From Alicyclobacillus herbarius DSM 13609 (GTDB taxonomy: Bacteria > Bacillota > Bacilli > Alicyclobacillales > Alicyclobacillaceae): DNA of 64,000 nucleotides. Location: positions 62,001 to 126,000 of the forward strand of contig NZ_AUMH01000006.1 of assembly GCF_000430585.1 (NCBI RefSeq), written 5' to 3'. A model generated the notes under the pieces. It was not told the DNA's origin. It ran no database searches and saw nothing but the letters and a program-made list of their open reading frames with translations. Shown piece by piece: positions 4,520-8,662 of this stretch (position 1 is its first letter; every line of letters begins with the position of its first letter). A program made the position numbers and the translations under genes.

Positions 4520-5359
4520 TCAGGCGGACGGTTTCGAACGGCGCTTGCCGAGATTTTGCGAAATCCGATCTAAGATGATGGCGATGATGACGATGCTCAA
4601 CCCTGCTTCAACGCCCTTGCCAACATCCACCGTTTCAAGTGCAGACATGACATCAGCACCCAGGCCGCTGGCACCAATCATGGCGGCAATCACGACCATG
4701 GACAACGCGAGCATCAAGGTTTGGTTAATGCCCGCCTTGATACTTGCCATCGCCAGGGGCAGCTGCACCTTCCAGAGCAGCTGTCGGTCACTGGTGCCAA
4801 ATGCCCGCGCGGCCTCGACCAAGTCGTCCGGGACTTGCAGGATACCCAGCCGTGTCAGGCGAATGGCAGGCGGCATCGAAAACACCACCGTGGCCAAGAT
4901 GGCCGGTACGACACCGATGCTGAACAAGAGCAGAACCGGCACCAAGTAGACAAACGGCGGCATGGTCTGCATCAAGTCGAGCAAGGGTGACATCACTTGG
5001 TAGACGCTTTTGCGTCTGGCCGCCCAAATCCCCAACGGGATGCCGATAACCACAGCCACAAACGACGAAACGATAACCAACACGAGGGTTTCAATCATAT
5101 GGTTCCACAAACGCAAATCTTCAATCAGGAGCAAGCCGATGAGGGTGCCGATTGCCAGCTTCCAGCGCCCAGCCAGATATCCAAGGGCGGCGATAACGAG
5201 GGTAAGCAGCCACCAGGGTACGTGCTCTAGCCCGACCGTGATACCGCTGACTACCGTCTGCACCACCTGGGAGACGGCGCCGAGCACGGGGCCAAGAACG
5301 TCAGACAGCCAGTTGACAAACTGGTTAATCCACGACGCCAGCGGGAGTTTCGGCAACAT
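4520..5359 (-). CDS. opuAB: glycine betaine ABC transporter permease
   Basis: Membrane-spanning subunit of the OpuA/ProW family, about 279 residues with 6-7 hydrophobic segments. The cytoplasmic EAA-type loop that contacts the ATPase is visible (VPDDLVEAARAFGTSDRQLLWKVQLPLA). Start: the frame is open to GTG 5368, but AAGGGGGG lies 8 bases before ATG 5359, which I prefer. It overlaps the 3' end of opuAA by 35 bases, so the two should be translationally coupled. Confidence 0.93.
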   Translation of the reverse strand: MLPKLPLASWINQFVNWLSDVLGPVLGAVSQVVQTVVSGITVGLEHVPWWLLTLVIAALGYLAGRWKLAIGTLIGLLLIEDLRLWNHMIETLVLVIVSSFVAVVIGIPLGIWAARRKSVYQVMSPLLDLMQTMPPFVYLVPVLLLFSIGVVPAILATVVFSMPPAIRLTRLGILQVPDDLVEAARAFGTSDRQLLWKVQLPLAMASIKAGINQTLMLALSMVVIAAMIGASGLGADVMSALETVDVGKGVEAGLSIVIIAIILDRISQNLGKRRSKPSA

Positions 5360-6557
5360 CGGCTTCACCCCCTTGTCCGGCCATCGCTTCCAGGATGGAA
5401 CTCTTCAGCACAAGCCCGCGCAGTACTCCATCCTCATCGACAACAGCGAGTGGATAGCGCGACTCCACGATACGACTGACCAGTTCCTCCAGGTTCGCTT
5501 GCGGGCTGACCGTGACAGTGGACTCCAGCGTACAGTCTGCCACTGAGGTCCGTTTGGCCTTTACGGCAGCTGCCAGTTCATCCGCGGTCACCAGGCCGCG
5601 CAGCCGCCGGCCTTCGTCGACCACGAAGCCACTAGACAAGCCCGCGTCCCGGAGCGTATGCAAGGCGACACGCGGACCATCTTTCAGGCGCACAAGCGGT
5701 GTCGGCCGCTTCATGACATCTTCCGCGGTCAGCACTTTCGTCACGTCCACCCCTTTGACGAAGCGCGCAACGTATTCGTTGGCAGGGTGACTGACGATGT
5801 CCTCCGGGGTTCCGACCTGGACGACCTCGCCGTCCTTCATGAGGGCAATCCGGTCCCCAATCTTCAATGCCTCGTTCAAATCATGGGTAATAAAGACAAT
5901 CGTCTTATGCAGTTGTTGCTGTAGGTTGAGCAGCTCATTTTGCATGTCGTCGCGAATCAGCGGATCGAGTGCGCTGAACGCTTCGTCCATCAACAGGATG
6001 TCAGGGTCGTTTGCCAGCGCTCGGGCGAGACCGACACGCTGCTGCATGCCGCCGCTTAAGTTTTGCGGAAACTGGTGCCCCCATCCTTTCAGCCCAACCA
6101 ATTCGAGCTTCTCCTCGGCAATGGCGAGTCGGCGTTCCCTTGCGACGTTTTGCACTTCCAGGCCGAACGCGACGTTCTCCAGCACCGTGCGGTGCGGAAA
6201 CAACGCGAACTGCTGAAATACCATCGCCATCTTCTTCTGACGGAACCGGAGTAACTCCGCTTTGTTCAAGCGCGTAATGTCCGTGCCGTCAACGACAATG
6301 GTCCCCGTCGTCGGCTCAATCAACCGGTTCAAGCACCGAAGCAGTGTCGACTTGCCACTGCCGGAGAGTCCCATGATGACAAACAATTCTCCCTTGTTGA
6401 TCTTCAGAGAGACGTGATTGACGCCGACGTTCTGCCCCGTTTTCTCGCGCACCTGCTCCTTGTCTGCGCCCTCGCGGAGCATCCGCAAGGCCGCTTCAGG
6501 CCGGTCACCAAAAACCTTGGTCACGTCCATGAGCTCAATCCACGCTCTTTGCTCCAT
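5325..6557 (-). CDS. opuAA: glycine betaine ABC transporter ATPase with CBS pair
   Basis: Energises betaine uptake. About 410 residues. Walker A GLSGSGKST at 63-71, signature LSGGMQQRV near 170, Walker B ILLMDEAFSALDP just after. The N-terminus has the ProV-type extension (EAALRMLREGADKEQVREKTG). The C-terminus has two CBS repeats (about 290-400), which in OpuA proteins sense ionic strength and can bind c-di-AMP. Start ATG 6557 has AAAGGGGG 6 bases upstream; the longer frame to 6599 has none. First gene of the operon. A possible weak promoter (TTGACA at 6639-6644) lies upstream. Confidence 0.95.
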   Translation of the reverse strand: MEQRAWIELMDVTKVFGDRPEAALRMLREGADKEQVREKTGQNVGVNHVSLKINKGELFVIMGLSGSGKSTLLRCLNRLIEPTTGTIVVDGTDITRLNKAELLRFRQKKMAMVFQQFALFPHRTVLENVAFGLEVQNVARERRLAIAEEKLELVGLKGWGHQFPQNLSGGMQQRVGLARALANDPDILLMDEAFSALDPLIRDDMQNELLNLQQQLHKTIVFITHDLNEALKIGDRIALMKDGEVVQVGTPEDIVSHPANEYVARFVKGVDVTKVLTAEDVMKRPTPLVRLKDGPRVALHTLRDAGLSSGFVVDEGRRLRGLVTADELAAAVKAKRTSVADCTLESTVTVSPQANLEELVSRIVESRYPLAVVDEDGVLRGLVLKSSILEAMAGQGGEADVAETPAGVVD

Positions 6558-6746
6558 AATCAGCCCCCTTTGAATACGTTGTGACAAATGTTGACCCACT
6601 ATCCGTCGCGCGATGGTTTTTTAACGGACCATACAAGTGTCAACACCTGTCGAAATAGAGCAAATGGCCTATTTCAGGCCACCCAAATTAGTTTACCATA
6701 ATATCTCCGGTTTTGCCGAAAGGTTTACTGGCGCAAGTATTTCTCC

Positions 6747-6912
6747 TGTGGATAAGGTTATCCACCGACTTATCCACAATATCCACATAGTTATCCACAA
6801 GAGGATCGCCCGCCCTGGGTATATCCCCATGGACTTATTCACACTGTCCACAGTGTGGCGGGTGTGGATTGTGCACAAGTTGTCCACTGGCCTGTCCACA
6901 ATCTGTGGATAA
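6747..6912. other. DnaA-box cluster
   Basis: Four perfect DnaA boxes (TTATCCACA or its complement) lie at 6747-6755 (-), 6770-6778 (+), 6791-6799 (+) and 6904-6912 (-). Single-mismatch boxes lie at 6758-6766, 6779-6787 and 6835-6843. Several two-mismatch sites (for example CTGTCCACA at 6844 and 6892) fill the rest. The cluster sits in the 378-base gap between tsaD and opuAA. There is no dnaA/dnaN gene nearby, so a DnaA-titrating or regulatory cluster is likelier than the main origin. Confidence 0.85.
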
Positions 6913-6935: not shown

Positions 6936-8159
6936 TCAGACAACCCGCCCGGATTGCCAATCGGACAACGACACAGTCGCGTGCGCGTTGAGGTTTAAGT
7001 CGTGCCGCAGGCCGCGCCGCAGCGCATAATAGCCGGCCGCCGCAATCATCGCGGCGTTGTCCGTACAAAGCGACAGCGGCGGAAAGACAACCGAGAACCC
7101 GTCAGACTCGGCGCGGGCGCGAAGGGCTTGCCGCAAGCCCTGATTGGCAGCGACACCGCCTGCCACCACCACATGGCGCAGGTTTGTGGTCTGCACTGCC
7201 CGAGCGGTTTTTTCCACAAGCACATCGCATACCGCTTGTTGAAAACTGGCCGCGACATCGGCGATATCCACAGCCTCCCCTTTCTGACGGCGACGGTTTA
7301 ACTCGTTGGCCACCGCGGTCTTCAGGCCGCTGAAGCTAAAGTCAAAATTCGCCTCTTCGATGAGAGAACGCGGAAAGGCAAAGGCATGCGGATCTCCCCC
7401 TTGCGCCAACTGGTCCAGCTTAGGGCCGCCGGGGTACGCCAGCCCCAGTAGACGGGCCACCTTGTCATATGCCTCTCCGGCGGCGTCGTCGATGGTTCCG
7501 CCCAGGCGCGTGAAACCAAACTGCTCGTCCACCTGGAGAATCTCCGTATGACCGCCAGAGACCACGAGCGCCAAGACCGGCAACCGGATGCCGGTCTCGC
7601 CAGTCTCGCCGGGCGTCGGGTTGTCCGTGGCGGCGGGCGTTGGCGTCTCGGCGGGAACACGCGCCGGCCTCTCTAACGGGGCAGGCGCACTTCCCGAAGA
7701 GGCGGACACCACGCCTGCCGGGGAGGTAGGCGCGGTGACCGCAGAAGCAGGCGCCAAACCTCCCTGGGACGCAGAGGTCGGCTGGGCTAAGAGCGCTGCC
7801 GCCACATGGCCGGCGATATGGTGGACCCCGATGATGGGCAGTCCGGTGGCGAGCGCCAACCCTTTGGCCGCCGAGACCCCCACCAGCAGCGCCCCCAACA
7901 ACCCCGGGCCATAGGTAACCGCAATCGCGTCGAGATCGGCAAATCGCAGCCCGGCCTCGGCCAGGGTCTCCGCAATCACCCGCGTGACGGCGGTCACGTG
8001 CCGACGTGAGGCCACCTCCGGGACCACCCCGCCGAACTGCGCATGCACCTGCATTTGCGAAGCAATCGTTTGCGCCAAAATGAGACGACCGTCGCGGACG
8101 ATGGCCGCGGCGGTCTCATCACAACTGGTCTCGATTCCAAGTACGAGCAACCGTTTCAT
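6936..8159 (-). CDS. tsaD: tRNA N6-adenosine threonylcarbamoyltransferase
   Basis: Transfers the threonylcarbamoyl group to A37 of ANN-decoding tRNAs, working with TsaB and TsaE. Kae1/TsaD fold: GIETSCDET at 8-16, metal-binding HHIAGH at 113-118, VSGGHT at 200-205, and GGVAAN near the C-terminus. At 407 residues it is about 65 longer than usual because of an Ala/Pro/Thr/Ser-rich insert at about 126-191, between the metal motif and SGGHT. Start ATG 8159 overlaps the rimI stop as ATGA, so translation is coupled. Last gene of the thiL-tsaE-tsaB-rimI-tsaD run. Confidence 0.95.
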   Translation of the reverse strand: MKRLLVLGIETSCDETAAAIVRDGRLILAQTIASQMQVHAQFGGVVPEVASRRHVTAVTRVIAETLAEAGLRFADLDAIAVTYGPGLLGALLVGVSAAKGLALATGLPIIGVHHIAGHVAAALLAQPTSASQGGLAPASAVTAPTSPAGVVSASSGSAPAPLERPARVPAETPTPAATDNPTPGETGETGIRLPVLALVVSGGHTEILQVDEQFGFTRLGGTIDDAAGEAYDKVARLLGLAYPGGPKLDQLAQGGDPHAFAFPRSLIEEANFDFSFSGLKTAVANELNRRRQKGEAVDIADVAASFQQAVCDVLVEKTARAVQTTNLRHVVVAGGVAANQGLRQALRARAESDGFSVVFPPLSLCTDNAAMIAAAGYYALRRGLRHDLNLNAHATVSLSDWQSGRVV

Positions 8160-8662
8160 CCTTTCTGTATGGCCGCATCGAAATTCCCGAGCGGCGGTAA
8201 ATTGGCCCACATGATGAGGGCGTCCTCGTGGTTGTCGGTGTAATACCCTTTGCGCACGCCCACCCCATGAAAGCCAAACTTCTTGTACAGGTTTTGCGCG
8301 ATCTCGTTCGATACCCGGACCTCCAGGGTCATGCGCAAGATCCCATTGGCGGCACAGATGGTCATCAGTGCCCGGAGCAGCGCTTCGCCCAAATGGCGGC
8401 CACGGTAGTCCGGATCGACCGCAATATTGGTGACGTGTCCTTCGTCGACCACGAGCCAGACACCGGCATAACCGACGACGATGCCGTCCCGCTCGGCCAC
8501 GATGTAGCGGGCAAACTGGTTATCCAACAGTTCGGCCAGGAAAGCTTGGCGTGACCAAGGGCTGGTAAACGAGCGCTGCTCCACCCGCATCACCTGATTC
8601 AGGTCGCGCACCGTCATTGATCTCAGGTGAAACTCGCCCGCATCCCACTCATAGCTGGCCAT
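8156..8662 (-). CDS. rimI: ribosomal-protein-alanine N-acetyltransferase RimI-like
   Basis: GNAT-fold acetyltransferase of about 168 residues. RimI acetylates the N-terminal alanine of ribosomal protein S18; other substrates are possible. Visible are the acceptor-side segment VEQRSFTSPWSRQAFL, the strand VVDEGHVTNIAVDPDYRGRHLGEALL with the acetyl-CoA loop (RGRHLG), and NEIAQNLYKKFGF near the end. Start ATG 8662 gives the normal family N-terminus; the frame open to 8806 is only antisense of tsaB. It overlaps tsaB by 14 bases and tsaD by 4. Confidence 0.93.
   Translation of the reverse strand: MASYEWDAGEFHLRSMTVRDLNQVMRVEQRSFTSPWSRQAFLAELLDNQFARYIVAERDGIVVGYAGVWLVVDEGHVTNIAVDPDYRGRHLGEALLRALMTICAANGILRMTLEVRVSNEIAQNLYKKFGFHGVGVRKGYYTDNHEDALIMWANLPPLGNFDAAIQKG

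Follow-up and report, generated by a model that had tools for sequence, protein, structure and literature searches.

Why does Alicyclobacillus herbarius keep a dense group of DnaA boxes beside tsaD, and what might DnaA do there? The initial annotation of the window, the 64,000-nucleotide stretch analyzed here, had reported four perfect and three one-mismatch DnaA boxes on both strands within 166 bp (6747–6912) of the tsaD–opuAA intergenic region, and our box scan reproduced all seven with every coordinate exact. The perfect boxes (TTATCCACA) lie at 6747–6755 (−), 6770–6778 (+), 6791–6799 (+) and 6904–6912 (−), the first forming the outer, inverted end of a conserved five-box block and the last lying nearest tsaD. 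The one-mismatch boxes, all on the plus strand, are TTATCCACC at 6758–6766, which occupies the last position of the 0/9/21 module discussed below; ATATCCACA at 6779–6787, which abuts the box at 6770 (a 9-bp step) and is followed by a 12-bp step to the box at 6791, itself 21 bp from 6770; and TTATTCACA at 6835–6843, which lies 44 bp from 6791 and abuts a weak site at 6844–6852. Seven more sites with two mismatches, all within 6821–6900, occupy the middle of the cluster, including plus-strand sites that start at 6844, 6869, 6880 and 6892 (6844–6900). No other 166-bp span in the 64 kb is as dense, and the seven boxes compare with a maximum of one (90 times) or two (10 times) in 100 first-order Markov shuffles of the window, which bears out the claim that the density is far above chance. 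An Rfam scan for an RNA element returned only sub-threshold matches, and we rejected that reading on this ground.

Box counts in the draft genome (3.31 Mb, 57 contigs) were used to compare the cluster with the origin. The genome holds 40 perfect boxes, four of them in the cluster and seven around dnaA on contig C19, a different contig from the window's, and because these seven surround dnaA there, C19 likely carries oriC. After oriC, the tsaD cluster is the site with the most perfect boxes in the genome. The placement of dnaA, with its own clusters, on C19 agrees with the earlier statement that the locus contains no dnaA or dnaN, as the flanking genes that we identified are neither. A box density second only to that of oriC might suggest a cryptic or relic replication origin, and the tsaD cluster does use the same 9-mer box as the Bacillus oriC clusters (upstream of dnaA and between dnaA and dnaN). 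However, the Bacillus oriC clusters have boxes in mixed orientation, other spacings and dnaA adjacent, whereas the tsaD cluster adjoins neither dnaA nor dnaN. Its layout is likewise unlike that of the 31 oriC loci that we scored, in which orientation was mixed and 12-bp steps occurred in 12, 9-bp steps in 4 and 21-bp steps in 6. With the B. subtilis clusters described as inhibiting initiation, not as origins (PMC11019786), we regard an origin at this site as highly improbable. A scan for an AT maximum and DnaA-trios gave the same outcome for the window and for the genome's own oriC and so did not discriminate. Elsewhere in this genome, close to the end of contig C42, three boxes, two of them perfect, lie at 14-bp steps (L032:3474–3510).

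The gene context was as first described, with the cluster intergenic between tsaD and opuAA. The tsaD gene (6936–8210, minus strand; TIGR03723, 426 bits), the gcp/ydiE orthologue and the gene with which the cluster stays, has its 3′ end 24 bp from the cluster, and opuAA (5325–6599, minus strand; ORF and profile match), which encodes a proV-like ATPase and is codirectional with tsaD, starts ~150 bp from the cluster on the opposite side. The TsaD protein contains an extra ~65 residues (around 142–205) that split its HMM match, a stretch that many relatives lack. Farther out, the gene for an ABC-F ATPase, the YdiF counterpart, whose 3′ part lies at 1–1108 on the plus strand (full ORF G000:C6:61117–63108), converges on tsaD, and the gap between it and the cluster is a 5.8-kb segment holding the opuA operon and a DMT-type transporter gene. 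In two same-genus relatives (loci L033 and L035) the ABC-F gene instead ends ~355 bp past the tsaD stop; the cluster occupies the interval, and opuA is absent there. By sequence comparison, then, what sets the window apart from its genus is the 5.8-kb segment beyond the cluster as seen from tsaD.

This arrangement bears on the other suggestion of the initial annotation, that the cluster could link DnaA to opuA control. In its fuller form this reading makes the boxes a promoter element that responds to DnaA and ties opuA, and with it osmoprotectant uptake, to replication state. The idea draws on the ~150 bp separating the cluster from the start of opuAA, on the shared direction of opuAA and tsaD, and on the known action of DnaA as a transcription factor, but synteny speaks against it. 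Although opuAA is the next gene here, it is not in most relatives: the same-genus relatives keep the cluster next to ABC-F with no adjoining opuA, and a further relative (G040), in which the order is ABC-F–opuAB–opuAA–tsaD, has opuAA adjoining tsaD and zero boxes. Because the cluster occurs without opuA and opuAA without boxes, the two vary independently. Among relatives the cluster was found whatever its non-tsaD neighbor, which encoded an ABC-F, Lgt-like, radical-SAM or histidine-kinase-like protein (the last three assigned by eye from their sequences), and in most relatives with a neighbor identified as ABC-F it sits between two 3′ ends, which is no position for a promoter. A search of the tsaD–opuAA gap for a sigma-70-like promoter also found none. 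We therefore discarded opuA regulation on the synteny of the same-genus relatives and G040, and consider a role of the cluster as an opuA control element very unlikely.

What the relatives share with the window is a site already characterized in B. subtilis, where tsaD is called gcp (TIGR00329/TIGR03723 names). We take the gcp–ydiF cluster to be among the six that Okumura et al. described in 2012. Smith and Grossman (2015) list it in their Table 1, as region 4, under 'downstream of gcp; downstream of ydiF'; it has ten sites and is among the strongest in-vitro DnaA-binding regions of B. subtilis, with a Kd of 0.15 µM for ATP-DnaA and 0.33 µM for ADP-DnaA and, at 55 nM, 16-fold more DNA bound by ATP-DnaA than by ADP-DnaA (PMC4447404). 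Deletion of all six non-oriC clusters of B. subtilis leads to early initiation, an effect that is strong only once all six are gone (PMC5295017; PMC13220808). The window cluster resembles the gcp–ydiF site in its many boxes, packed far above chance, its location 3′ of tsaD, the convergent ABC-F gene (adjoining in L033 and L035) and its predicted origin-proximal position, and differs in that the 5.8-kb opuA and transporter segment here separates it from ABC-F. Judged from gene order, it is the positional counterpart of the gcp–ydiF cluster; the likeness is one of position, with DnaA binding known for the B. subtilis site and predicted for this one. The proposal that the boxes form a Bacillus-type DnaA-titrating cluster is thus well supported, by the gcp/ydiF position and by a placement and internal spacing that are kept across the phylum, as detailed below. 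As a separate matter, we take ywlC to be a TsaC homologue. In B. subtilis, strong DnaA-binding regions lie by three tRNA-modification genes, gcp (tsaD), ywlC and trmE, possibly by coincidence (PMC4447404).

To survey tsaD loci we counted as a cluster any 200-bp span holding three or more boxes of no more than one mismatch each, one or more of these boxes being perfect, and searched from −150 to +1300 relative to the tsaD stop. A cluster was present 3′ of tsaD in 32 of 39 genomes of the family Alicyclobacillaceae, 8 of 12 of its sister family, 32 of 50 in a class sample and 44 of 70 in a phylum sample, fractions that are rough in that the loci were biased to high TsaD scores. For the phylum and class samples, the final 60 loci were hand-picked from tables before their downstream sequence had been seen. 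A broad named sample, made up of the first genomes reached by the scan and to be read as roughly, gave a cluster at tsaD in 7 of 76, all seven of them Bacillota: Bacillus canaveralius (L104), Macrococcus bovicus, Alkaliphilus peptidifermentans and four Clostridia/Bacillota MAGs. In Jeotgalicoccus the cluster lies 2.4 kb off, adjoining the ABC-F 3′ end. The prospect raised at the outset, that comparison of the tsaD gap would find the boxes missing from all close relatives, thus did not materialize, and the element is continuous between Alicyclobacillaceae and Bacillus by way of the sister family, the class sample and B. canaveralius. In none of the loci examined did a cluster lie upstream of the tsaD stop by more than 150 bp, and only one in ~1.3 Mb of tsaD loci lay clearly outside the tsaD/ABC-F region. 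About a third of the sampled Bacillota, including seven same-family relatives, lack a cluster at tsaD, and for this reason we consider the cluster dispensable or replaceable. One genome without it, G018, has two other box clusters, one of which has 21–22-bp phasing (L233:4542–4803, that is, G018:C1:4232542–4232803) and lies upstream of genes for a DUF1779 (YwmB-like) protein and an EPSP-synthase-family (MurA-like) protein; we rejected the notion of a relocated cluster there, as homology to the tsaD cluster was unsupported.

Conservation extends to the internal arrangement of the boxes. In the same-genus alignment, 51 of 58 columns of the five-box block are identical, compared with 39 of 135 in the opuA-side flank; the box at 6747–6755 has an aligned counterpart, with a single mismatch, in both same-genus genomes, the weak-site part (6844–6900) is partly conserved (47 of 75 columns), and the box at 6904–6912 showed no conservation in those two genomes. 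Across deduplicated clusters, 320 of 391 boxes are oriented against tsaD, and same-strand spacings of 9, 12, 21 and 42–44 bp exceed those of random placement. The excess was at 9, 12 and 21 bp in the Alicyclobacillales set, at 9, 12 and 42 bp in other Bacilli, with 22 replacing 21, and at 9, 12, 21 and 42 bp in non-Bacilli. In 37 clusters fetched later, the 9-bp step was found in 28 (5.0 expected), the 12-bp step in 20 (4.6), the 21-bp step in 21 (4.8) and the 43-bp step in 12 (3.2); this null keeps box number and span, not phylogeny, and with shared ancestry the counts are not independent events. The window follows the same scheme, with steps of 12, 9 and 12 bp at 6791/6779/6770/6758 and then 44 bp to 6835. 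The consensus around the abutting pair is CCTGTGGATAA-TGTGGATAA-nnC-TGTTGATAAC, in which the third box is the least uniform and its position often holds a weak form, TGTTGATAA.

The exact abutting pair, an 18-mer, was found in 138 of 398 and 62 of 299 genomes, whereas its reversed control had zero matches in both sets. Together with shuffles that never exceeded two boxes per span and with conservation across the phylum, this control makes chance, or a functionless repeat, scarcely credible as an explanation. The 18-mer is not unique to tsaD: of 59 loci carrying the pair, 15 are beside tsaD, one is beside ABC-F with tsaD out of reach, four are beside dnaA and the others are elsewhere, from which it follows that DnaA-box clusters in this phylum use the pair as a general module. 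In other Bacillota it turns up again close to hpf, which encodes a ribosome hibernation factor, close to a gene of the comF family and close to genes for the binding proteins of amino-acid ABC transporters (L309, L358, L315, L326, L339 and L353, at about position 1500), a recurrence that suggests further conserved clusters. Our literature search, to which Okumura 2012 and Ishikawa 2007 were external, found no report of conservation across Bacillota. The locus joins a known class of non-oriC clusters, and what stands out is its conservation, phase-locked and phylum-wide.

The location of tsaD bears on when such a cluster would be copied. In near-complete genomes tsaD lies about 6–25% of chromosome length from dnaA, and the B. 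subtilis binding summit is at 628 kb of 4.2 Mb, or 15% (PMC4447404). Genomes without the cluster have tsaD–dnaA distances in the same range, so nearness to oriC is a property of tsaD's location. As tsaD is origin-proximal, the cluster is likely copied early, an estimate that rests on tsaD's location in near-complete genomes, the window's contig being unplaced in the draft. The boxes, their conservation, their spacing and their position are direct observations; we infer DnaA binding, complex formation and a role in timing in A. herbarius. The cluster is probably an ancient brake on replication start, and we are fairly confident in reading it as a non-oriC chromosomal DnaA-box cluster, the counterpart of gcp–ydiF, that would act as an early-replicated, DnaA-sequestering brake. 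DnaA would bind the tandem boxes at 9-, 12- and 21-bp steps cooperatively, on one strand and in fixed helical phase, and this phased binding would build a multi-protein DnaA complex. With the cluster copied early, strong competing sites would increase in number soon after initiation, leaving less free ATP-DnaA and holding back premature re-initiation.

The fixed phasing exceeds the needs of simple titration. One explanation is a structured DnaA-modulating site in the manner of E. coli datA or DARS, in which the 0/9/21 module would change the nucleotide state of DnaA or hand DnaA over. Spacing and orientation that are conserved across the phylum and different from oriC, the frequent retention of the third box as a weak form, and the strong preference of the B. 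subtilis site for ATP-DnaA (PMC4447404) are consistent with such a site, but B. subtilis lacks homologues of Hda and IHF (PMC13220808) and cooperative binding alone perhaps explains the phasing, leaving this mechanism improbable. The comparison with E. coli is itself mixed. Like datA, the cluster is a non-oriC set of DnaA boxes, one for which we propose a restraint on initiation, whereas datA needs IHF, promotes DnaA-ATP hydrolysis and occupies a different position; like DARS1 and DARS2, it is a short box set with set spacing and a conserved location, whereas DARS reactivates ADP-DnaA and promotes initiation. A broader formulation, which we offer tentatively as a minority possibility, is that a phylum-wide cis-element with a set architecture (CCTGTGGATAA-TGTGGATAA-nnC-TGTTGATAAC, then boxes ~43 bp on) has stood beside tsaD since before the split between Bacilli and other Bacillota and nucleates a defined DnaA-regulating complex, which would make it the Bacillota counterpart of datA/DARS and not a passive sponge.

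For the sequestering brake that we favor, the wider interest lies in how initiation is limited in Bacillus and its relatives, an unsettled question in bacteria without several of the control proteins known from E. coli. DnaA-box clusters in this group have often been regarded as minor sponges. That the boxes at a single locus keep their place, orientation and helical phase throughout the phylum suggests selection on a specific complex, and the tsaD cluster is a single, small, portable element with which the effect of spacing on initiation may be tested.
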